Positions 57 to 26,724 of a stretch of 28,248 nt of DNA are shown in pieces. The notes under the pieces were generated by a model that searched no databases, was not told where the DNA came from, and saw only the letters and a list, made by a program, of their open reading frames with translations. A program made the translations under genes and the position numbers. The DNA lies in the IMG/VR virus record IMGVR_UViG_3300027840_000007, positions 1-28,248 of that record; one strand, 5' to 3'. This stretch comes from a virus. Each line of letters begins with the position of its first letter. The stretch's first letter is position 1.

Positions 57-120
57 ATGTCTTATATATATAGTATATAGTATAGATAGAAGATAGTTCT
101 TGACATGTCTTATACATATA
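57..120. repeat. AT-rich direct repeat pair upstream of the first gene
   Basis: A 16-base word starting ATGTCTTATA is present at 57-72 and again at 105-120 with one mismatch (T versus C at the eleventh base). The start-to-start distance is 48 bp. The space between is filled with TATAG-like words. The second copy overlaps the spacer and -10 area of the candidate promoter at 100-129, which is where an operator would lie. A second, shorter pair, ATTAGGA at 141-147 and 151-157, has a 10-bp phase. AT-rich sequence produces such matches easily, so a regulatory role is inferred only. Confidence 0.4.
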
Positions 121-129
121 ATATATACT
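100..129 (+). promoter_or_regulatory. Candidate sigma70-type promoter
   Basis: TTGACA at 100-105 matches the -35 consensus exactly. An 18-bp spacer leads to TATACT at 124-129 as a -10 element. TATAAT is also present at 117-122, but its spacing of 11 bp is too short. Transcription would start near 136 and run through the structured region towards the gene at 387. The surroundings are very AT-rich, so the -10 match is weaker evidence than the -35 match. Confidence 0.5.
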
Positions 130-135
130 ATATAT

Positions 136-367
136 AGAGCATTAGGAGTCATTAGGATCTGGGTATCCATAAATTAATCCAGCCTGCGGCGGAGAGAGGG
201 ATCCTACTAAATGGCGAATGCAGGTGATCTAGTGCTCTGCTATGTGTAACTGTGGTTTTGGATACCCCCTTCCCCATGGTTGCACTATATGAAGCGTAAT
301 GAACGCCGATTGCGTATCAACTTCAGGGGAGGGTCCTGAACGCTTCACCTAAAAAATAATTTTTTTA
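136..367 (+). ncRNA. Candidate structured RNA or structured 5' leader
   Basis: No convincing gene lies in 1-386, but 136-367 has strong complementarity. GGGTATCCA at 161-169 pairs perfectly with TGGATACCC at 259-267. That helix encloses a CCTGC (183-187)/GCAGG (220-224) arm. Further on, TGAAGCGT at 290-297 pairs with ACGCTTCA at 340-347, enclosing TTCAGG (322-327)/CCTGAA (335-340). A run of seven T lies at 361-367, about 13 bases after the last stem, so a terminator is possible but not canonical. The sequence could be a free-standing phage RNA or a leader of the gene at 387. I do not recognise it as tRNA, tmRNA, RNase P or a known riboswitch. Confidence 0.4.
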
Positions 368-386
368 TAAAATAAAGGAGACTAAT

Positions 387-1498: not shown

Positions 1499-2072
1499 TC
1501 AGAAACTAATCGCTGAGGTAGGAAGAATCAATCAGAGAATCGACTTCCTAAAGAAATCTACCGGAATATACGCCGGACTGAAGAAGATAACATACCAGCA
1601 GCTAGTGTTCATGCAAGAATACCTACGGGAGGGAGATCCAGAGATCGCGGCGTTCAAGGCAAACACAAGAATAACAAAACAAGCTTCGGCTAGAAAATGG
1701 GGAATGAGACAGTTGGAAAATACATTCATACAATCTACAATAAAGAAGGCCTTAGAAGGAGAAGAGAGGCTGTCACCGGCGAAGATCGCGAATAAGGTGG
1801 CGGACGCTTTTGATAATGCTGCTACTGTAGGGGATGTAATCAAGGTAGCGGAGTTTGTAACTAAGACTAGAGGAGAATACAATGACGGGAACAAGATTGG
1901 GATTAATGTCGGCCTCGGAGTTATCGGAGGTCAATCGACTGAAGAGCTTGAGAAACAGTTTGCTATCCTCGTTGGAGGTGGAGAAGATCAACCAATCGAA
2001 TCAAGAGAGGATAACCTCCTTGATGAAATTACTCTCCGAGACGGAAGCGAAACTGGGGCTGCTGAACTTTGA
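1446..2072 (+). CDS. terS: Terminase small subunit
   Basis: Small terminases bind the packaging site on phage DNA and load the large-subunit motor. Residues about 48-75 (ITYQQLVFMQEYL, then REGDPEIAAFKA) match the helix pattern of the Terminase_2 type, normally written as x-x-F-x-x-E-Y-x-x-x-G-N-A-x-x-A. A helical oligomerisation region follows at about 110-145. At 208 aa the length is normal. AAGGAG at 1431-1436 supports the start. The C-terminal 63 codons overlap the start of the large subunit in another frame, which is an unusually long overlap. The assignment rests on the motif and on the position directly before the large subunit. Confidence 0.8.
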   Translation: MKKVSDGIRDLSSNSRVDQKLIAEVGRINQRIDFLKKSTGIYAGLKKITYQQLVFMQEYLREGDPEIAAFKANTRITKQASARKWGMRQLENTFIQSTIKKALEGEERLSPAKIANKVADAFDNAATVGDVIKVAEFVTKTRGEYNDGNKIGINVGLGVIGGQSTEELEKQFAILVGGGEDQPIESREDNLLDEITLRDGSETGAAEL

Positions 2073-3447
2073 TTTCTTTAACGAGTTCATACTAGGCTGC
2101 GGGAATCTATCAGATGTTCACCACGATTTATGTGAACTAGCTCAATACGGACCAGAGAGACAGCTCACGCTGATCCCCCGTGGTCATTTGAAATCCCAGA
2201 TATTGACCATTGGGTTCTCTGTTTGGAATATAATTTTAGATCCTAATATCAGGATATGTCTCATGAACGCTAAGGCGGATAATGCCGAATCCTTCCTCAC
2301 AGCGATCAAGGGACACTTTGAGTCCAATCAAAAGCTACGCATGCTCTACGGAGATTATGTGGGTAAGAAGTGGAACGAGGGGGAGATCGTTACATCCAAG
2401 AGAACGAACCCCTCTCTCAAAGAGAATACGATTAAGTGTTCCGGTGTAGGTGCTTCACTTGTCTCACAGCACTACGATTTGATTATCCCGGACGATGTAG
2501 TTAACGAAACTAATGTCACCACCAAAGAGCAGATAGACAAGGTAAAAGAGTGGTGGGGCCTATCACAGTCTCTTGGAGATGGTGAGAAGACTCGCTGGAG
2601 AATCGTTGGCACGCGTTATCATGATGACGATCTCTATGGCGAACTGATTGAGAAAAATGATGCTGCGCCTAAGCCTTACAATATTTATATACGAAGAGTT
2701 ATAGAGGACGGCAAACCTATCTGGCCGTTCAAGTTTAATGAAGAACATATCGCTGATATTAGAGCTAACCAGTCCGCTTACACCTTCTCTTGTCAGTATT
2801 ACAATGACCCGATCAATGCTGATGACGCCATCTTTATGAAGGAATGGCTACAGTATTATGATGACGAAGATGTTGTGGATAAGAATGGTGATCCAATTAA
2901 AAAGATGAATCACTTCATAACTGTTGACCCAGCGATCGGTCAGTCTGATAGAAACGATGATACAGTCTTCTGTCACACTGCGGTTGATGAGGATAACAAC
3001 TGGTATGTGAGCTTCCCTTCTGTTGGTAAATTCACTCCCGGCGTAATTATCGATAAGATGTTTGACCACGATGAAGAGTATAAACCCAAGACTACCGGTG
3101 TTGAGGGCGTAGCATTCCAGAAGGTTCTACAGTATATGGTCAATGACAAGATGAAAGAACTGAATAACTTCATTCCGATAACTGAACTAAAACCTAACGC
3201 CAGATCAAAGGTAAATCGCATTAGAGGCTTACAACCGCGTTTTGAAAATGGTATAATATATATACGGAGAAATGATAAGAATTCAGAAAAGTTTGTTGAT
3301 CAGCTGTTGAGGTTCCCTACCGGAACTCATGATGACATGATTGACGCGCTCGCATATATGTTAGACATCGCGTATCCTCCTCGCAAAAAAGAGAGAGATG
3401 AACGCAAAAAGACTCGAAAACCGATGGATGGAATCACTAATTATTAG
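1882..3447 (+). CDS. terL: Terminase large subunit (packaging ATPase and nuclease)
   Basis: This is the DNA packaging motor that docks on the portal and cuts the concatemer. The ATPase half has Walker A PRGHLKS at residues 99-105, Walker B LIIPDD at 200-205 and a coupling segment GTRYHDDDLYG at 243-253. The nuclease half has the RNase H-like acidic triad: TVDPA (D349), GVEGVA (E409) and HDDMIDA (D484/D485). The length of 521 aa is normal. AGGAG at 1871-1875 strongly supports the start at 1882 inside terS. Starting later, at the methionine near residue 48, would still leave the whole ATPase. The first 63 residues are charged and probably helical, beyond the usual ATPase core. Confidence 0.95.
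   Translation: MTGTRLGLMSASELSEVNRLKSLRNSLLSSLEVEKINQSNQERITSLMKLLSETEAKLGLLNFDFFNEFILGCGNLSDVHHDLCELAQYGPERQLTLIPRGHLKSQILTIGFSVWNIILDPNIRICLMNAKADNAESFLTAIKGHFESNQKLRMLYGDYVGKKWNEGEIVTSKRTNPSLKENTIKCSGVGASLVSQHYDLIIPDDVVNETNVTTKEQIDKVKEWWGLSQSLGDGEKTRWRIVGTRYHDDDLYGELIEKNDAAPKPYNIYIRRVIEDGKPIWPFKFNEEHIADIRANQSAYTFSCQYYNDPINADDAIFMKEWLQYYDDEDVVDKNGDPIKKMNHFITVDPAIGQSDRNDDTVFCHTAVDEDNNWYVSFPSVGKFTPGVIIDKMFDHDEEYKPKTTGVEGVAFQKVLQYMVNDKMKELNNFIPITELKPNARSKVNRIRGLQPRFENGIIYIRRNDKNSEKFVDQLLRFPTGTHDDMIDALAYMLDIAYPPRKKERDERKKTRKPMDGITNY
3249..3264 (+). promoter_or_regulatory. Extended -10 promoter site A, inside terL
   Basis: TGGTATAAT at 3249-3257 is followed by ATATATA, the same word as at 6161, 20725 and 25764. 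The -10 hexamer is 3252-3257 and the start would be near 3264. A weak -35 candidate (TTACAA, 3229-3234) is 17 bp upstream. A GGAGA and an ATG follow at once, opening only a 12-codon frame. It lies within coding sequence about 200 bp before the portal gene, so it could feed portal transcription or could be a chance match in an AT-rich codon run. Confidence 0.4.
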
Positions 3448-3455
3448 GAGGCTAA

Positions 3456-5639
3456 ATGCCAGCAGAACAAATTGAAACCACCGAAGCGATGGATACGGTT
3501 CAACCGGACGGAGCTGAAGGTGAAATCGTTGAAAAGGTTTTAGTAAAATCATGGTATCCCTCATTTTTAGATAAAGAAATTGACGGCACTGATGAAGAGA
3601 AGGCCGCCATTTGGGTCAACGACAGACGCAAGTCTATGGCCGCTGCTCGTCAACCCTACGAAGCAATTTGGACTGCAAACGAAGAAGCCTACCTAGTTAA
3701 ACAGGGAACTACTATCGTTGGTGAAGAGTGGAGATCTACAATGACCGTCCCTCTTACTCATGGTATGGTAGAAACTGTAGTCGCAGAATACGCTGACTCA
3801 CAACCAAAATCATTTATTGACGCCGGTCAGGAATCTTATGACCACGGCGCTAAGATAATTTCAGATATTAAGAAATATACCGAGATGAAGGGTGACGCTG
3901 ATCTAGAAGATAATGTCGCCTATCGTTCTATGGGTATGTATGGAACGGCTATTGCTTGGGAATACTACAGAGAAGACCCAGTAATCGTCAAAGACCTCAA
4001 GTCTGTGGATAAAAAAGGTATCAAGACTTGGGATATTTATGAAACTACAGAGTTTAACGACCCTTACCGCAAGGTAATCTCACCTTGGGACTTCTATCCT
4101 CATGAAAATGCTACCACTATGGGGAATATGATCGACTGTATCCGCAGAGAATCTATGGAACTTCATGTATTTAAGGACGCTTATAAGAAATATGAGAAGG
4201 CAGCTGATGTTACTGCCGGTGGTGAGACTGACCAGAAGGAACCAAATCCTCGTCCAGTCGGAGACCAGAAGCAAATGGTGGAAATACTTCACTATTACAA
4301 CAAACCTCAAGATACTTACTGGATTGTCGCTAATGGAATCCTATTAAACGAGTTTGAATCATCTCTACCAGATGAACATAAGATGCTTCCATTCGCAGAA
4401 GGTTGCTATATCAAGCGTTTGAACCACTTCTGGGGTCTATCACTACCAGAAATCATCGCTGGAACGCAGTCTGAGCTCAATACTTTACGCCGTTTGAGAA
4501 TGGATAGAGCCAAATTGAACATCGCTAAGGTATTCCTTATCTCAGAGCGTGCTGATATTGACGATGACGAGCTACTTGTTCGTCCCGGAATGCGTATTAA
4601 TGTTCAAGATCCTAACAATTCAGTCAAAACACTGGACTTTTCAGACACTGGAATGTCAGCTTACAAGGAAGAAGACGCATTATTCCATGATTCACAGCTT
4701 GGAACTGGTGTTTCTGACCCTTCAATGGCCACTGTTTCAGGTGCTACAGCCACCGAATCAGCCATTGTTAAGGAATCTACCCTAAAAAGAATCCGCGCGG
4801 GCATGAATATCTTCCGTGTTACCTATACAAATCGTCTTGGACGCCTTCGTTTGGCCAATATCCTAGCTGCTTATCGTGATCCTATGAAGGTAAACGAGGT
4901 TACTGGGGCTGATGGAGAGGTAAAAGCTGACGCAGTTTATCGTCAGATCCAAGTTGAAGACCCTAAAACAGGCGCTTTAAGCTCAATTACGGTTAATCCA
5001 GATGAAATCCGTGGTGAATATCACTACAGAAGTGAGTCTATGAGCTCGATTCCACTATCTAAAGCACTACAAGAACAGAGATCTGAAATGCTATTTGACC
5101 GTCTTATCCAGCTACCTACCACAGATCCTACCAAAGCTACTAAATGGCTGATGACAGCCCACCAAGAAGACCCTTACGCAGTCCTATTTGATAACATTGA
5201 TACTGCTGGTCCAGAACTAGCCTCCGAAGAGAACGCTAGAATGATGCAGGGTGGTCAATTACCGGGCACTATCGGTGCTACTCCTGAACACACCATGAAG
5301 CACTTGATGTATGTTAGAGAGAATGCTTGGGTTATCCCTGAGAATATCGACCAGATCTTCACTACTCACATCAATTCTGAGTTGAATCCAGTGACTCCTG
5401 CCGGTGTAGGTGGCCTAGCTGCCCCAGTTGGCGCAGAGGGCGCTCCTATGAGCGTTGGTGGACCTACCGGGTCTGCTCCTATGGAAGGTCAAATGACTGG
5501 TCCTGAAGGCGGTGCTCCGACTCCAGCCGGAATGCCACAAGCCGCAGGCGTCCCGGGACAACCTCAAGGTGGGAATCCAATGCTACCTGACATGAGTGCA
5601 GATGGACAACAGCAAGGCGTTAACGCTTCAATACAATAA
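3456..5639 (+). CDS. Portal protein
   Basis: The portal is the dodecameric ring at one capsid vertex through which DNA enters and leaves. The gene follows terL by 8 bases, with AGGAGG before the start. At 727 aa it is in the large-portal range typical of podoviruses. The N-terminal half has the usual portal features: an early charged helical domain, a segment VETVVAEYADSQP, and an alternating charged region with W-D-I-Y and SPWDFYPHE. Helical stem-like segments follow near residues 330-360. From about residue 645 the C-terminus is rich in Gly, Pro, Ala and Gln and probably disordered inside the head. The call rests on position, size and motif style, without an alignment. Confidence 0.85.
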   Translation: MPAEQIETTEAMDTVQPDGAEGEIVEKVLVKSWYPSFLDKEIDGTDEEKAAIWVNDRRKSMAAARQPYEAIWTANEEAYLVKQGTTIVGEEWRSTMTVPLTHGMVETVVAEYADSQPKSFIDAGQESYDHGAKIISDIKKYTEMKGDADLEDNVAYRSMGMYGTAIAWEYYREDPVIVKDLKSVDKKGIKTWDIYETTEFNDPYRKVISPWDFYPHENATTMGNMIDCIRRESMELHVFKDAYKKYEKAADVTAGGETDQKEPNPRPVGDQKQMVEILHYYNKPQDTYWIVANGILLNEFESSLPDEHKMLPFAEGCYIKRLNHFWGLSLPEIIAGTQSELNTLRRLRMDRAKLNIAKVFLISERADIDDDELLVRPGMRINVQDPNNSVKTLDFSDTGMSAYKEEDALFHDSQLGTGVSDPSMATVSGATATESAIVKESTLKRIRAGMNIFRVTYTNRLGRLRLANILAAYRDPMKVNEVTGADGEVKADAVYRQIQVEDPKTGALSSITVNPDEIRGEYHYRSESMSSIPLSKALQEQRSEMLFDRLIQLPTTDPTKATKWLMTAHQEDPYAVLFDNIDTAGPELASEENARMMQGGQLPGTIGATPEHTMKHLMYVRENAWVIPENIDQIFTTHINSELNPVTPAGVGGLAAPVGAEGAPMSVGGPTGSAPMEGQMTGPEGGAPTPAGMPQAAGVPGQPQGGNPMLPDMSADGQQQGVNASIQ

Positions 5640-5654
5640 TAAAGGAGGTTCGGC

Positions 5655-5933
5655 ATGATACTGATCGGTAAAATTAAATTTGAAGACAGGGAAGCCCTAT
5701 CTAGGATCTACCACAGCAAAGACTGGGAGGTCGTAGTTAGGATATTCGGGGAAAACGAAAGAGAGATCATACATCGAGAGATGGAAAATACAACCTCAAT
5801 GGAGGATCTAGCATTTGCGCAAGGTCGAATCGCAGGTGTGAAAAAGTTAATTAAAGGAATAGCCGAAGCCGGTAAGAGCTTCGAGAAAGAGGATGAAGAT
5901 GAGCAAGAAAACACCACAACCTACAACGGTTAG
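5655..5933 (+). CDS. Small conserved-type protein after the portal, 92 aa
   Basis: Begins 15 bases after the tandem portal stops (TAATAA) with a near-perfect AAAGGAGG. The protein is mostly helical and charged. Its middle (EDLAFAQGRIAGVKKLIKGI) resembles the small proteins with an x-x-x-G-R-I-x-G pattern that often follow portal genes and are thought to help head assembly. The C-terminus is very acidic (E-K-E-D-E-D-E-Q-E). It overlaps the next gene by 35 bases. The exact function is unknown. Confidence 0.75.
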   Translation: MILIGKIKFEDREALSRIYHSKDWEVVVRIFGENEREIIHREMENTTSMEDLAFAQGRIAGVKKLIKGIAEAGKSFEKEDEDEQENTTTYNG

Positions 5934-6159
5934 CCCAGAGTTCAACCTACAGTTCAAGTCCAAGGTAGAAGAGCTGCAGGAGTGGGGACTAGATAATGGC
6001 GTTAGAATTGACGCATTTATTGATGTTTCAATCAACGGATTAGTCCCAATGATTTCATATCAGGAACTCAGCGAACAACAGAAGGCTAGTTATGCAGAGC
6101 ATAAGAAAATTCTAGCAGAGTCCCTGAAGGTGGAAAAGGATACTATCACTACTAAATAA
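5899..6159 (+). CDS. Hypothetical protein, 86 aa
   Basis: Two in-frame ATGs lie at 5893 and 5899. The second is preferred because AAAGAGG ends 6 bases before it, while the first would touch the ribosome site directly. The protein has a polar N-terminus rich in Thr, Pro and Lys, then a predicted helix with KVEELQEWG and a likely strand-helix pair around AFIDVSINGLVPMISY. There are no cysteines or membrane segments. It is the last gene before the promoter and leader region at 6160-6379 and so closes the portal group. I do not recognise the family. Confidence 0.7.
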   Translation: MSKKTPQPTTVSPEFNLQFKSKVEELQEWGLDNGVRIDAFIDVSINGLVPMISYQELSEQQKASYAEHKKILAESLKVEKDTITTK

Positions 6160-6160
6160 A

Positions 6161-6176
6161 TGGTATAATATATATA
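6161..6176 (+). promoter_or_regulatory. Extended -10 promoter site B
   Basis: TGGTATAAT at 6161-6169, followed by ATATATAG, lies immediately after the stop of the preceding gene. No good -35 is visible at the right distance (TACTAT at 6141-6146), as is usual for promoters that depend on the extended TG. Transcription should start near 6176, at the beginning of the structured leader. It is the clearest of the four copies because it is in non-coding DNA and directly precedes a structured RNA and a terminator. Confidence 0.7.
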
Positions 6177-6294
6177 GAACAATTTAGTATCTTGATAACA
6201 GAGGGTTCGGCAATCATCTGGAAGTGTTTTTAGCTTCTGAAGGTAAGCCGAACCCCTTCAGAGCTATAAAGGCTTCCAGATGGAGGCCTTTTTT
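6176..6294 (+). ncRNA. Structured leader or small RNA with two alternative folds
   Basis: Fold one pairs GGGTTCGGC (6203-6211) with GCCGAACCC (6247-6255), with a small GAAG/CTTC hairpin inside (6221-6224/6234-6237). It leaves the terminator at 6269-6290 free. Fold two pairs CATCTGGAAG (6215-6224) with CTTCCAGATG (6273-6282), destroying the terminator, and encloses TCTGAAGG (6236-6243) with CCTTCAGA (6255-6262). The two folds exclude each other because they share bases. This is the classic arrangement of an attenuator or riboswitch. It could instead be a free-standing small RNA of about 120 nt that ends at the T run. The pairings are read directly; the regulatory meaning is inferred. Confidence 0.55.
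6269..6294 (+). terminator. Intrinsic terminator before the scaffold/capsid genes
   Basis: AAGGCTTCC (6269-6277) pairs with GGAGGCCTT (6282-6290) in a 9-bp stem with one G-U pair and an AGAT loop. The T run spans 6289-6294. The 5' arm is also complementary to 6215-6224, so the hairpin competes with an upstream pairing. The highly expressed scaffold and capsid genes follow without another obvious promoter of the same type, so read-through is probably regulated or partial. Confidence 0.75.
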
Positions 6295-6308
6295 AGTTAG
6301 ATAGCAAC

Positions 6309-6362
6309 CCGGCACAAGCCGGCCTATAAATAAAAAAGTAGCGCAACCCCGAAAGGGACCGC
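6309..6362 (+). promoter_or_regulatory. Leader hairpins upstream of the scaffold gene
   Basis: CCGGC (6309-6313) pairs with GCCGG (6318-6322) around an ACAA loop. A second hairpin has CCC (6348-6350) and GGG (6355-6357) closing a GAAA tetraloop, with GCG (6341-6343) and CGC (6360-6362) able to extend it. They are not followed by T runs, so they are probably leader structures rather than terminators. A stable GAAA-capped hairpin 18 bases before the start codon could protect the message or influence ribosome loading. Confidence 0.4.
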
Positions 6363-6379
6363 ACAGAAAGGACATTAAC

Positions 6380-7378
6380 ATGTCAATGAAACCAGACTTG
6401 TCAGAGTCAGCCGAGGAGAATGTAACCGAAGTGAATCTGGATGGACCAGACACCGAAGAGACAGAAGTCTCAACTGAAGTCGCCGATGAGGATCTCTTTA
6501 ACGGAGAGCCACTAGACGAGGAGAAAGACGCGAAACTCATGGAAGCGTTCGGAATCGAGCCTGACGAAGAAGAAGAGGTTACTCCTGATAAGGAGTCTGA
6601 GACTGAGGACGAGGAAGACGAGGGGACCGAACCTCTGGAAACAGAGAAGGAATCCGAGGACGAGAAGCCCAAAGAACCAGTAGTAGAACCTGAAAAACCC
6701 GTTGTTGATTATGAGAAGAGATACATCGACTCACAACGCGAGGTTGTCGAAGTATTGCTCCCAGCTAAAAAGGAGCGTGATGATCTCTTGGCAGAGAAGA
6801 CCAAGTGGGATTCGGAGAAGGAAGAGATTCGTGGGATTCTGCGTAGCGACCCTGAACTCCTAAACAAGTTCACGGAAGTGGCAGAGAACTATGTTCCCGT
6901 CCAGAAACCGGTCGCACCTGTGGTGGATCAGACAATTATTGATGAGGCAGTCAAAAAGACTATTGGCGAAGATGGGCTGAAAATGCTCAACGATGCTAAG
7001 GAAAAGACTGAGAAAGAGCGCGGAGACGCAATCGTAGCCTTTGAAGCAGCCCACCCCGGTCTAACCTCAGAAGAGAGAGGAATTCTCGCTACCCAGACAG
7101 CAATCCTAGAAGCTAGTTTGAAGATACCTTTGCATGAAGCTCTTGAGCGATCATTCAAAGCAACATTTCCAGACCGAGCATTTGCCGCCGAAAAAGAGAA
7201 GCTTGAAGAAGCCGCTCGCGTGCGCGCAGCTAAGAGGGACGGTGCTACCGTTACAACTACCGGATCAGCCGGATCTACAGGATCTAAAAAAGTCGCTCCC
7301 GCATTAACAGCTAAGGAACTAAAGCTTGCAAAAGCATTCGGACTGACAGCAGAGGAAGCGGCCGCTCAACAAGATTAA
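6380..7378 (+). CDS. Capsid scaffolding protein
   Basis: Scaffold proteins guide assembly of the prohead and then leave it. The first 115 residues are extremely acidic, dominated by Glu and Asp. Residues about 110-155 look like a charged coiled coil, and the rest is mainly helical and Ala/Glu/Lys-rich. After a Gly/Ser/Thr linker the C-terminus ends in a helix-turn-helix (LTAKELKLAKAFGLTAEEAA), as in scaffolds that bind the capsid protein through a C-terminal helical hook. Its place before the decoration and capsid genes fits. GAAAGGAC lies upstream of the start; an ATG two codons later is also possible. No protease motif is visible. Confidence 0.75.
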   Translation: MSMKPDLSESAEENVTEVNLDGPDTEETEVSTEVADEDLFNGEPLDEEKDAKLMEAFGIEPDEEEEVTPDKESETEDEEDEGTEPLETEKESEDEKPKEPVVEPEKPVVDYEKRYIDSQREVVEVLLPAKKERDDLLAEKTKWDSEKEEIRGILRSDPELLNKFTEVAENYVPVQKPVAPVVDQTIIDEAVKKTIGEDGLKMLNDAKEKTEKERGDAIVAFEAAHPGLTSEERGILATQTAILEASLKIPLHEALERSFKATFPDRAFAAEKEKLEEAARVRAAKRDGATVTTTGSAGSTGSKKVAPALTAKELKLAKAFGLTAEEAAAQQD

Positions 7379-7402: not shown

Positions 7403-7792
7403 ATGAGAACTATTGGATCTCTAAGCGGAAACTTTGAAGGCGCTCTATATGAGTTCACTGCAGCTGAGACTATCACCAAAGGTGATCTAGTTTCAATCTC
7501 TGGTGGTGAAGTTATATGTGCTGCTGCTACTGAGGTTATCCTCGGAACTGCAGTAAATAGCGCAGCAGATGGCGAACAAGTTCTCGTCAACTGTGACCCA
7601 CTTCAAGTTGTCGTTATGCCAGCAACCGACCTCACTGCCGCTATGGTAGGTGAACACATGGACATTGAGGGAACTACCGGAGCTCAAAAAGCTGACGGAA
7701 GTGACCACAAGACAGCCACAGCCCAGTTAACATTAATTAAATTCATCAGTGCCACAGAAGGTGTTTTCACCATCTTTGAGCGTGTCGTATAA
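7403..7792 (+). CDS. Head decoration/stabilisation-like protein (DUF2190-type), 129 aa
   Basis: The sequence alternates short beta strands with Gly and contains the pattern TKGDLVSISGGEV followed by ILGTAVNSAADGEQVLV. This matches small beta-barrel head proteins of the DUF2190 type, which usually lie directly before the major capsid gene, as here. Such proteins are thought to cap or stabilise the capsid lattice. The start has AAAAGGAC upstream. The gap to the capsid gene is 17 bases, with its own AGAAGGAGA. Family membership is judged by eye. Confidence 0.65.
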   Translation: MRTIGSLSGNFEGALYEFTAAETITKGDLVSISGGEVICAAATEVILGTAVNSAADGEQVLVNCDPLQVVVMPATDLTAAMVGEHMDIEGTTGAQKADGSDHKTATAQLTLIKFISATEGVFTIFERVV

Positions 7793-7809: not shown

Positions 7810-8715
7810 ATGTCAGCAAATAGACTACAATTCAGTCCTCTTCTCTTTAAGGGCCTTCGTAAGGTTTACGATGATGTCTACAAAGAGTGGGACGAACAAT
7901 ATTCTAAGCTTTTCAATGTGCAAACATCTGAAATGTCTGAGGAAACCGACTACAGCGTAACTGGTTTCAAACTGCTTGATAAGGTCAACGAAAATCAGCC
8001 AGTTAGTTACCAAGATCCACTACCGGGTTACAGCGTAACCTACAAGCATGATACTTTTAAGGGTGGTTTCACCGTTACTAAGGAAATGCTTGATGACGAC
8101 CAATACAATGTAATGAAGAAAAAAGCCGGCGCTCTTGCTAAAGCTGTTCGTAGAACAGTTGAAACAGAAGCTGCTAAAGTCATCAATGGCGCTTTCGGAA
8201 CTACAGTTGTAACAGGTGGCGATGGTAAAGCCCTCATCGCAACTGATCACCCTCGTAAAGATGGTGGAACAGCTCAGTCAAACATGGGAACAGGCAAACT
8301 TACAGAGCCTAACCTTATCGCCGGTATGCTACAAATGCGTAGCCTGCTTGACGACCAAGGTCAGAAGATCATGGTTAAGCCTAACAAACTCGTTACTAGC
8401 CCTACCAAGGAAGCAACTGCTAGAATTCTTCTTGAGTCCGCTCAAAGAACTTCTACAGCTAATAACGACATCAACCCAATCAAGGGTGCTCTAGAACTCG
8501 TAATTTACGAATATATGGACGCAGACAAGCAGGAATATTGGTTCCTTATCGATTCCAGCTTGAATGAGCTCAACTTCTTCTGGAGAGAGAAACCTTCATT
8601 CACTGAAGAGAATTCTTTCGACACAGATGCTCGTAAATACAAGACTCGTTGCCGATTCTCTTGCGGATTCAGCGACTGGCACGGTATCTACGGTTCTAAC
8701 GGAACTACTGCCTAA
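7810..8715 (+). CDS. Major capsid protein (HK97 fold, Mu-like head subunit type)
   Basis: The main shell protein, at 301 aa. The N-terminal region with LFKGLRKVYDDVYKEW and the later ATDHPRKDGGTAQSN segment resemble the Mu gpT-like major head subunit family, which has the HK97 fold. The internal helix region AKAVRRTVETEAAKVINGAF fits the spine helix. Later segments include the LLDDQGQKIMVKPNKLV strand pattern that is typical of this family. There is no long N-terminal delta domain, consistent with the separate scaffold gene. A strong hairpin follows the stop, as expected for a highly expressed message. Confidence 0.85.
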   Translation: MSANRLQFSPLLFKGLRKVYDDVYKEWDEQYSKLFNVQTSEMSEETDYSVTGFKLLDKVNENQPVSYQDPLPGYSVTYKHDTFKGGFTVTKEMLDDDQYNVMKKKAGALAKAVRRTVETEAAKVINGAFGTTVVTGGDGKALIATDHPRKDGGTAQSNMGTGKLTEPNLIAGMLQMRSLLDDQGQKIMVKPNKLVTSPTKEATARILLESAQRTSTANNDINPIKGALELVIYEYMDADKQEYWFLIDSSLNELNFFWREKPSFTEENSFDTDARKYKTRCRFSCGFSDWHGIYGSNGTTA

Positions 8716-9640: not shown

Positions 9641-9962
9641 GAAGGACAAATCTAGCGCAGTAGCAACTGCCGGACTTGCTTCCAGAGACTATGAGGCCAA
9701 GACTCTAACAGTAGCTAACGGAGCTACTGACTATAACTGTAAAACTACCGGAGCGATGTTCGCTAATTTAGCCACATCATATTACACAGAGATCAGAACT
9801 AGCCACGCAATCACGGTAAAGATTAATTCTACAGACAATGCCGGGATCGATGTTCTAGCCGCAGATTCACCATATATCATTGACTGGGCTCAGGTCGAAA
9901 ATCTATTCATTAGTAACGCATCAGGAAACGCAGCTACAGTTAAAATCGTAATTGCCGGATAG
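9624..9962 (+). CDS. Small beta-rich virion protein, 112 aa
   Basis: Overlaps the previous gene by 17 bases, with GAGG upstream. After a short Lys/Ser-rich start the protein alternates strands and loops (AKTLTVANGATDY, then HAITVKINSTDNAGIDVL), ending in AATVKIVIAG. This resembles small beta-sandwich structural proteins that decorate capsids or tail parts. No catalytic motif is visible. Its place between the capsid region and the coiled-coil gene suggests a virion component. Confidence 0.65.
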   Translation: MSQLFKKDKSSAVATAGLASRDYEAKTLTVANGATDYNCKTTGAMFANLATSYYTEIRTSHAITVKINSTDNAGIDVLAADSPYIIDWAQVENLFISNASGNAATVKIVIAG

Positions 9963-20749: not shown

Positions 20750-21853
20750 ATGATTCTAACAGCCAAACATCCAGATCTTAACAATGAGAAGTCCTATTTA
20801 TCTACAGCGGTTGCCGCTGGAGCTACTTCTACGCCTCTAAAGAGTGCAGTAGGGATCGCGGTTGATAATTACATAGTCATAGGTAATCCCGGTCAGGAAA
20901 AGACTGAGATTGTCCTTCTAACTGGTAAATCAGGGAATACAGTCTCTCACGCTGCTTTAGCCTTCGGCCATAGCGTAGATGCACCGGTATTCGTTATTAA
21001 ATACAATAAAGTCCGTTTCTATGAGTCAGATACAGCTACTGGAACATATACGCTAGTCACAACCGTTGACCTAGATATAGATAATGACCAAACTAAATAC
21101 GATTATACAGCCGGTTCTGAAGACAAATACTACAAAGCTGCTTACTATAACGCAGAATTAGATATTGAATCTACAATGAGCGACCCTCTTGTTGGATCAG
21201 GATACACTCCTCTATCAGTCGCTAAGATGATTGAAGGAGTCCGCACTCTCGTAGGTGAAGTGCCAACTGACGATGAGATTATCTCTCTTCTAAACCTAGC
21301 AGAGCAGACAGTCTATGATTACCGAGATAAGTGGTATTTCGCCAAAGAGCGTAAAACTTATAATGTAACTGCCGATACCTCAAGATACCCACTTCCTACT
21401 GACTTCAAGATGAGTTCTAGGGAGGTTTATAATGACCAGAGGTTCTATGACGAAGACGATGTTGAGATTACTACATCAAGGATAGTATCTCCACTACAGC
21501 GCCGTGACTACAACGCTTATATGACAGATTACTTCTTGGCAGATCCTTCTGACACGATTGCTATCTATACTATAGATGAAGCCTCTGAAGAGCTAATAAT
21601 CAGCCCTACTCCTATCACTACAAACGGGACTATCGAGTTCGGTTATTGGGCTGGCCCATCTATCCTCAGAGAATACACTGATGTTACTAAGGTCCCTTCA
21701 GTCAAATTCCATGTATTCTTTACAGCATCAAAGATCGAGGCGTCCAAGAAGAATACTGAGCAATCTAAACTTTACTGGAATGAATCACAGGACGCACTAA
21801 GGAGCCTAGGTAATAAGCGCTATAGCGGCAACCAGTCATTCGGAGTAGCTTAA
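20750..21853 (+). CDS. Head-tail adaptor protein with N-terminal extension, 367 aa
   Basis: The adaptor ring joins the portal to the tail nozzle. Residues about 160-367 have the usual pattern: EVPTDDEIISLLNLAEQ, then DKWYFAKERKTYNV, TSRYPLPTDFKMSSREV and a helical end with KLYWNESQDALRSL. This matches adaptor proteins of the P22 gp4/T7 gp11 (tail tubular A) kind in gene order and style. The first 150 residues are an extra part with a YIVIGNPGQEKTEI domain and a fibronectin-like region with KVRFYESDTATGTYTL. That extra part resembles domains in the nearby fibres. GAGGAGA precedes the start. Confidence 0.7.
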   Translation: MILTAKHPDLNNEKSYLSTAVAAGATSTPLKSAVGIAVDNYIVIGNPGQEKTEIVLLTGKSGNTVSHAALAFGHSVDAPVFVIKYNKVRFYESDTATGTYTLVTTVDLDIDNDQTKYDYTAGSEDKYYKAAYYNAELDIESTMSDPLVGSGYTPLSVAKMIEGVRTLVGEVPTDDEIISLLNLAEQTVYDYRDKWYFAKERKTYNVTADTSRYPLPTDFKMSSREVYNDQRFYDEDDVEITTSRIVSPLQRRDYNAYMTDYFLADPSDTIAIYTIDEASEELIISPTPITTNGTIEFGYWAGPSILREYTDVTKVPSVKFHVFFTASKIEASKKNTEQSKLYWNESQDALRSLGNKRYSGNQSFGVA

Positions 21854-25779: not shown

Positions 25780-25812
25780 GATAATCGTGTTCGGCAGAAA
25801 CAGGATTAACGA

Positions 25813-26724
25813 ATGCCAATTACAGTTAAATCTGGTGACACCCTCTGGGGCATAGCGCAACGGTTATGGGGGAACGGATCCTACTATACTAGATTAAAGG
25901 GTTTCAAGTCAGGGAATCCTAATTTAATATATCCGGGCGAAGTTATTACTTGGGACGGTGATACTGGTGCTGGTGGAGCTTCTGCTCCTACTTCAACTGC
26001 TCCTGCTGGCCCTACTCCAGAACAGATTGCTGCTAAGGAAGAGGAAGACAAATATAACGGAGTTATCGCTGACTACGACCTTCTCAAGAAGGACTGGAAG
26101 AATATCATCGATCCTACTGATGTCGCCGGTAATGAGCTCTACTCTAAATTTTTAGATACACTTACAAACAATCCAAACCTAGATCCATATTACGCTCAGA
26201 GATTAGCTGATGGAGTAGCCGGTCCTTCTCAGGAAGCCACCCTTCAGGAACTTCTAGCTAACCCTACGCTCAAGAACGCTCTCGGACCTAAATGGCTAGA
26301 GCTTTTGGGAACGGTTGCCGCTAACGCTAATGATAACGAGCTTAATGCTACTTCTGCTGCTCACGCTAGAGCTTATCTAGGTCAGGCCGCTAATCTTGAG
26401 AACTCAACAATGACGGGCCTAGACGAGGCCGCTAAGACATTCGCTGATAATGGTATTCGTGGTGGTATGAGAAACGCCGGAGTCAATGAGGTTAGGGAGA
26501 AGGGCGCAGGCGCTTCTGCTAATATGAACTCAGGTGAGGCTGACTGGAGACGAGGATACAAGGCAGATAATAAGACTAAGATACAGGGATACGCTTCTAG
26601 CCAGAGAGAAACTATCAAGAATAACGACTGGAATACCCTTTGGGCTAATTCTGGAATTAATAACGCTGATCTACGAAATAAATTCTTGGGTTCGGGCGGT
26701 TACGCTGAAACTAACTGGACATAA
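25813..26724 (+). CDS. LysM-containing virion/ejection protein candidate, 303 aa
   Basis: Residues 2-48 are a LysM domain: ITVKSGDTLWGIAQRLWG, then NPNLIYPGEVI, the usual peptidoglycan-binding fold. A Ala/Pro/Thr/Gly linker follows (about 52-70). The remainder is helical, alanine- and asparagine-rich, with repeated NN, AAA and AG turns. No catalytic lysozyme or peptidase motif is visible, so it binds but probably does not cut the wall. Heading a run of three Ala-rich genes after the tail genes, it fits an internal virion protein released with the DNA. The role is inferred from the LysM domain and gene order. Confidence 0.65.
   Translation: MPITVKSGDTLWGIAQRLWGNGSYYTRLKGFKSGNPNLIYPGEVITWDGDTGAGGASAPTSTAPAGPTPEQIAAKEEEDKYNGVIADYDLLKKDWKNIIDPTDVAGNELYSKFLDTLTNNPNLDPYYAQRLADGVAGPSQEATLQELLANPTLKNALGPKWLELLGTVAANANDNELNATSAAHARAYLGQAANLENSTMTGLDEAAKTFADNGIRGGMRNAGVNEVREKGAGASANMNSGEADWRRGYKADNKTKIQGYASSQRETIKNNDWNTLWANSGINNADLRNKFLGSGGYAETNWT

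Follow-up and report, generated by a model that had tools for sequence, protein, structure and literature searches.

A putative two-state transcription attenuator ahead of the scaffold and capsid genes of an uncultivated phage

Gene neighbourhood and architecture of the leader

The window, that is, the whole stretch of DNA analysed here, is a 28,248-base virus fragment (IMG/VR record IMGVR_UViG_3300027840_000007) from which part of the genome is absent. The leader under study is preceded by the genes for the large terminase (1882-3447) and a head-tail adaptor/portal-like protein (3456-5639), and by two small genes without assigned function (5655-5933 and 5893-6159). Downstream, on the plus strand, lie the genes for a probable scaffold (6380-7378; acidic, 332 aa, without database match), a small head protein (7403-7792; weak match to the head scaffolding family phrog_673, E 1.3e-5) and the major capsid protein (7810-8715; phrog_371, E 2.3e-30). 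The position ahead of scaffold and capsid genes proposed in a first-pass annotation of this DNA agrees with this gene order. Two diverged relatives served for comparison, IMGVR_UViG_3300027265_000001 (L006/G001) and IMGVR_UViG_3300045051_000154 (L007/G002), whose capsid proteins are 84% and 82% identical, respectively, to that of the window; scaffold orthologues are 56-57% identical in both.

A direct check, together with a terminator scan, found the promoter, the two folds and the terminator described in the first-pass annotation, all at positions that match the sequence. The leader opens with an extended -10 promoter, TGGTATAATATATAT (6161-6175, plus strand; TGGTATAAT at 6161-6169), with a predicted RNA start near 6176. 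A simple -35/-10 scan missed this promoter because it is of the extended -10 type. Exact copies of its core, TGGTATAATATATA, are also found at 3249, 20725 and 25764, making four in the window; TATAATATATA occupies the same place in L006 and L007, and similar promoter copies occur elsewhere in both relatives. Judged by its sequence, this is a general strong phage promoter, present also in unrelated viral contigs. The exact copy at 3249 lies within the terminase gene and is retained in both relatives.

An intrinsic terminator (T; 6268-6297, plus strand) consists of a hairpin at 6268-6291 followed by a run of T's, and would end the transcript near 6294. Every promoter recognised here is separated from the head genes by this terminator. 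Inspection of the three phages by eye revealed no conserved promoter between the terminator and position 6380; therefore, head-gene transcription probably must pass the terminator. Between the terminator and the scaffold ribosome-binding site, a tandem pair of short hairpins sharing a YAAS/AN internal loop was detected (6306-6365, plus strand, the second at 6341-6362). They occupy the same place in L006 (6439-6505) and L007 (6449-6513), with loops of mostly 4-5 nt and covariation in the stems, and a strict hairpin pattern recovered both hairpins in L006 and in L007 but a single one in the window. These hairpins are possibly a protein-binding site.

Four helices were recognised in the leader RNA. 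Helix A pairs 6203-6211 (GGGTTCGGC) with 6247-6255 (GCCGAACCC) at 9 of 9 positions; a conserved CAGAG lies just upstream of its 5' strand, and its 3' strand becomes part of the hairpin B loop when the alternative fold forms. For the window, L006 and L007 alike, constrained folds of the terminated state predict a small hairpin D (GGAAGT/GCTTCT, 6220-6238) enclosed by helix A. Helix C, the candidate antiterminator, joins CATCTGGAAG (6215-6224) to CTTCCAGATG (6273-6282) with 10/10 pairs and, taken as 6214-6224 with 6273-6283, comprises 10-11 bp; its 3' strand overlaps the 5' arm and the loop of the terminator. Helix B pairs 6229-6243 with 6255-6268, as supported by sequence comparison. Its core, 6236-6243 (TCTGAAGG) with 6255-6262 (CCTTCAGA), is complete (8/8 pairs), is extended by 6231-6234/6263-6266, and encloses the loop GCCGAACNCC.

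C and T are mutually exclusive because both use 6273-6282, and A and B have one base in common, 6255. The earlier claim that shared bases make the folds exclusive holds for these two combinations, but not for A and C, which have no common base and instead cross each other, so that they exclude each other by topology unless a pseudoknot is formed. A and B combined as a classical pseudoknot were considered and rejected, because their 3' strands leave no linker that could span helix A.

Fold strength and energies of the two states

The 125-nt leader RNA folds at -48.5 kcal/mol, compared with -28.7 +/- 3.8 in 200 dinucleotide shuffles (z -5.25), and the homologous RNAs of the two relatives gave z values of -5.29 and -6.15. 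In a fold scan of the whole window, the leader ranked among the top few of 1408 tiles. The strongest tile, 7441-7560, sits within the small head-protein gene (7403-7792), and the tiles at 9961 and 10161 are mostly or wholly genic. Since several other top tiles fall within genes, a strong fold alone is not decisive here.

When the two states were folded and compared, as the first-pass annotation had recommended, their energies were found to be nearly equal. The minimum-energy fold of the finished window RNA is B+C, not A+T. Constrained energies for A+T and C+B were -44.1 and -44.7 kcal/mol in the window, -41.0 and -44.2 kcal/mol in L007, and -37.3 and -41.9 kcal/mol in L006, a gap of 0.6-4.6 kcal/mol across the three phages. 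Equilibrium is predicted to favour the antiterminated state in all three, and for this reason termination would depend on folding kinetics. In folds of the growing transcript, A prevails for 3' ends between roughly 6251 and 6275, with C+B taking over as the minimum at about 6279. The barrier between A+T and C+B was estimated at ~31 kcal/mol in the window, so that the choice of fold must be made during transcription. Blocking the 5' strand of A in a folding prediction that left out L006 led to the predicted loss of T and formation of C.

Conservation and covariation in related phages

Conservation was assessed in a hand-made alignment of three independent sequences, those of the window, L006 and L007; an identical fragment, L005, was also matched in IMG/VR. 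The whole element lies at the same genomic place in both relatives, and all four helices (A, B, C and T) are kept in both. Double compensatory changes were found at 7 base pairs, 1 in A, 3 in B, 1 in C and 2 in T. These include pair 2 of helix A, which changes from G-C to U-A in L006 (GTGTTCGGC/GCCGAACAC), the second pair of helix C, C-G in the window versus U-A in the relatives, and the three pairs of helix B, all of them in L007. Four further pairs are altered on one side alone with pairing retained. The expectation that the long helices would show compensatory changes in related phages was thus borne out for both A and C. Departures from perfect pairing comprise one mismatched pair of helix C in L006, a one-base bulge that terminator T requires in the same phage, and one internal T-T within B that is unpaired in two of the three sequences. 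L007 has 15 substitutions in its helices, yet of 43 pairs only 1 is broken; random placement would break 12.1 on average, and none of 20,000 trials broke as few; in L006, 4 pairs are broken versus 7.7 expected (P 0.02), a count that is an overestimate because T was scored without its one-base bulge.

Chance alternative pairings are common at terminators, and it could be argued that this is an inverted-repeat-rich terminator region whose second fold is biologically meaningless. Such a reading is extremely improbable and is already contradicted by the comparisons, given that z lies between -5.25 and -6.15 for each of the three RNAs, that every helix shows compensatory changes and that pairing in L007 is nearly intact.

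A run of 6-7 T's follows the terminator in all three phages. The window has one base fewer in the terminator loop than its relatives, and this is accompanied by two differing bases in the distant C strand, which preserve the pairing of helix C; judging from the alignment, this joint change is not called for by the terminator alone. As read from compensatory changes on both strands, evolution keeps both shapes.

Conservation is unevenly distributed along the leader: positions 6176-6196, just past the promoter, are poorly conserved and contain insertions, whereas the folded part is conserved. This pattern bears on a reading in which a Q-like protein acts, with a late promoter, a nearby terminator and read-through by a protein-loaded polymerase, the alternative RNA fold being secondary. 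At the lambda late promoter, a short leader RNA and a terminator have to be passed for the structural genes to be expressed, and Q acts near the promoter. The layout here is the same, a constitutive-looking promoter, a short leader that would yield a short terminated RNA, a terminator and late structural genes, and the promoter sequence recurs in the phage. However, the region nearest the promoter is the one that varies, and the compensatory changes in C demand an RNA explanation; where lambda uses the Q protein, this leader carries a conserved RNA antiterminator helix. Control by a Q-like protein is therefore considered improbable.

Searches for further relatives by portal alignment returned the same two phages and the identical fragment from IMG/VR, and none from the GTDB genomes. 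A leader DNA pattern matched the same relatives alone in IMG/VR; a looser version added unrelated matches there and gave unrelated matches alone in the GTDB genomes. The portal and scaffold proteins had no match among named phage records. In a more distant phage, L008 (37% capsid identity), the scaffold gene is preceded by TGCTATAAT and by a terminator, but the leader itself is not recognisable. In L006, positions 5862-6270, just upstream of the leader promoter, hold an insert without window counterpart that by eye resembles an HNH homing endonuclease.

Transcription attenuation and alternative readings

In each of the three phages a promoter and a terminator stand upstream of the first head gene, helix C excludes T both by shared bases and in constrained folds, and both folds are evolutionarily kept, with at least one of the seven double compensatory pairs in every helix. 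With a probability of roughly 0.6, the leader works in cis as a two-state transcription attenuator of the scaffold/capsid operon and, in addition, gives rise to a free RNA of ~115 nt. RNA polymerase would initiate near 6176 at the phage promoter, and helix A would close first, by about 6255, leaving the terminator free to form. The resulting A+T state would yield the terminated RNA of ~115 nt and little capsid mRNA. If A were kept open during synthesis by a bound RNA, protein or ligand, B and C would form, and transcription would continue into the head genes because C engages the terminator's 5' arm and loop. Termination is probably the default, because A closes before C can; we infer this role of A during transcription from the modelled folding order, and a regulated choice between the two states is likewise inferred.

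Terminators that compete with antiterminators are the basis of transcriptional riboswitches and of amino-acid leader-peptide attenuators, and the first-pass annotation had recognised the design of these elements in the leader. The covariation of both long helices agrees with that design, but no riboswitch class matched in Rfam, and neither an aptamer class nor a conserved leader peptide links this leader to either group. No family in Rfam 15 reached its gathering threshold for the leader, and a further search at gathering score returned tRNAs alone. Weak hits below threshold, such as Phe_leader (E 0.098, 22.6 bits against a cut-off of 55), were set aside as chance-level. Short open reading frames in the leader lack a Shine-Dalgarno sequence and differ in length and content across the phages, none being conserved; a leader-peptide attenuator, which would need a conserved short ORF equipped with control codons and a ribosome-binding site, was accordingly ruled out. 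If helix A and hairpin D belonged to an aptamer, the leader could be a small-molecule riboswitch of a class not yet described. Such a riboswitch would share the terminator/antiterminator design and could account for the conserved unpaired CAGAG before helix A. Nevertheless, the lack of an Rfam match even at a permissive threshold and of an obvious conserved ligand-binding core besides the helices, together with how unusual metabolite control of capsid genes would be, makes it distinctly improbable.

The kind of element is thus a known one, and this leader is an additional example of a terminator/antiterminator attenuator. To our knowledge, the timing of costly head production in tailed phages beyond model systems is largely undescribed, and a conserved RNA switch ahead of the head genes would be a concrete control element, testable in vitro without the host. 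Even an ordinary attenuator would add to phage regulation an RNA family absent from Rfam. In the part of the open literature covered, no attenuator ahead of phage capsid genes was found, and a review of phage small RNAs does not mention capsid genes or antitermination (PMC12197685).

The pT181 attenuator also has two exclusive folds, in which an upstream segment can hold the 5' arm of the terminator, and a fully complementary antisense RNA promotes termination (PMC4878617). The leader resembles it in its exclusive terminator and antiterminator folds and in possible control by an RNA pairing to a hairpin loop. It differs in that candidate partners match over ~9 bases and no antisense promoter was found; a simple scan, which also missed the extended -10 promoter, detected no sigma-70-like minus-strand promoter in 6136-6708.

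The first-pass annotation had also allowed for a small phage RNA, which is compatible with the data and possibly made alongside attenuation. Taken as the main function, the locus would be a phage gene for a small RNA of ~115 nt whose B loop pairs phage mRNAs and controls their translation, the head genes being reached by constant read-through. A phage small RNA of this type, PAK_P4as15, represses an endolysin gene (PMC12197685), and the leader RNA might similarly pair phage mRNAs, here perhaps that of a LysM-domain gene. Promoter and terminator bracket a compact RNA; outside the leader, the loop is predicted to pair best in trans with the ribosome-binding site of gene 5655 (-21.3 in the window) or, in G001, of its orthologue (-26.4); in the three phages, several genes have GTTCGG immediately ahead of their start codon; and GNGTTCGGC recurs in the 5'UTR of the LysM gene and in a second small RNA. 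However, the gene-5655 site ranks outside the best matches in G002, the counts of the motif were made post hoc, and in L006 the loop, which changed together with its cis partner, has one pair fewer with the GGGGTTCGGC ribosome-binding site. In contrast to PAK_P4as15, this RNA is the leader of a head operon with a conserved competitor of its terminator, and its targets are predicted. Many of the traces attributed to an attenuator would also be expected from a constitutive partial terminator combined with a small RNA, but the compensatory retention of pairing between C and the terminator, and thus helix C, would then be unexplained. A purely small-RNA role is accordingly regarded as possible but unlikely. 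GTTCGG lies directly between the Shine-Dalgarno sequence and the start codon of several small genes, at 5648 in the window, at 8188 and 3097 in L015, and at 8171, 2561 and 2896 in L016. The longer GGTTCGG likewise abuts the start codon in several small genes.

For the two-state attenuator, a recurring motif offers a lead to what might keep helix A open. The helix A 5' sequence GNGUUCGGC recurs behind the promoter of the LysM gene in all three phages (window 25787, G001 11671, G002 15294) and close to the beginning of a second small RNA with a promoter and terminator of its own (G001 ~21627, G002 ~4799). In G001 its second base is T in the leader, the UTR and the second RNA, whereas in G002 it is G at each of these places; in the window, from which the second RNA is absent, it is G in the leader and T in the UTR. 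This recurrence and partial covariation are suggestive of a trigger, as a post hoc pattern with two full sets. An RNA-controlled version of the switch can be envisaged in which the second phage RNA, carrying GNGUUCGGC, pairs with the GCCGAACNC strand, keeps A open and so turns on capsid transcription. In this version, which is improbable, the second RNA would come from an earlier-looking promoter, and the LysM gene and the small genes beside the head operon would be tied in by the same short sequence. If it were true, the leader would be an RNA-only timer of late genes and a natural counterpart of engineered small transcription-activating RNAs.

The second small RNA itself (G001 21590-21710, L022; G002 4720-4830, L024, minus strand) has a promoter of the TTGACA type and a long terminator hairpin; GNGUUCGGC lies close to its beginning, and a pseudoknot could arise from a conserved ACCCACCGCATAGGGTNAGCGGCT block. 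In the 5'UTR of the LysM-domain gene (window 25787-25813), a UAAUC/GAUUA stem carries GNGUUCGGC in its loop, an arrangement conserved in the three phages. A further promoter-preceded structured RNA, without Rfam match, was observed upstream of the terminase genes (window 117-375, L015 2682-2870, L016 2740-2885); its block GAAGCG...GGGGAGGGTCC...CGCTTCACC, with which CCCCCTT could pair, is kept in the three phages.
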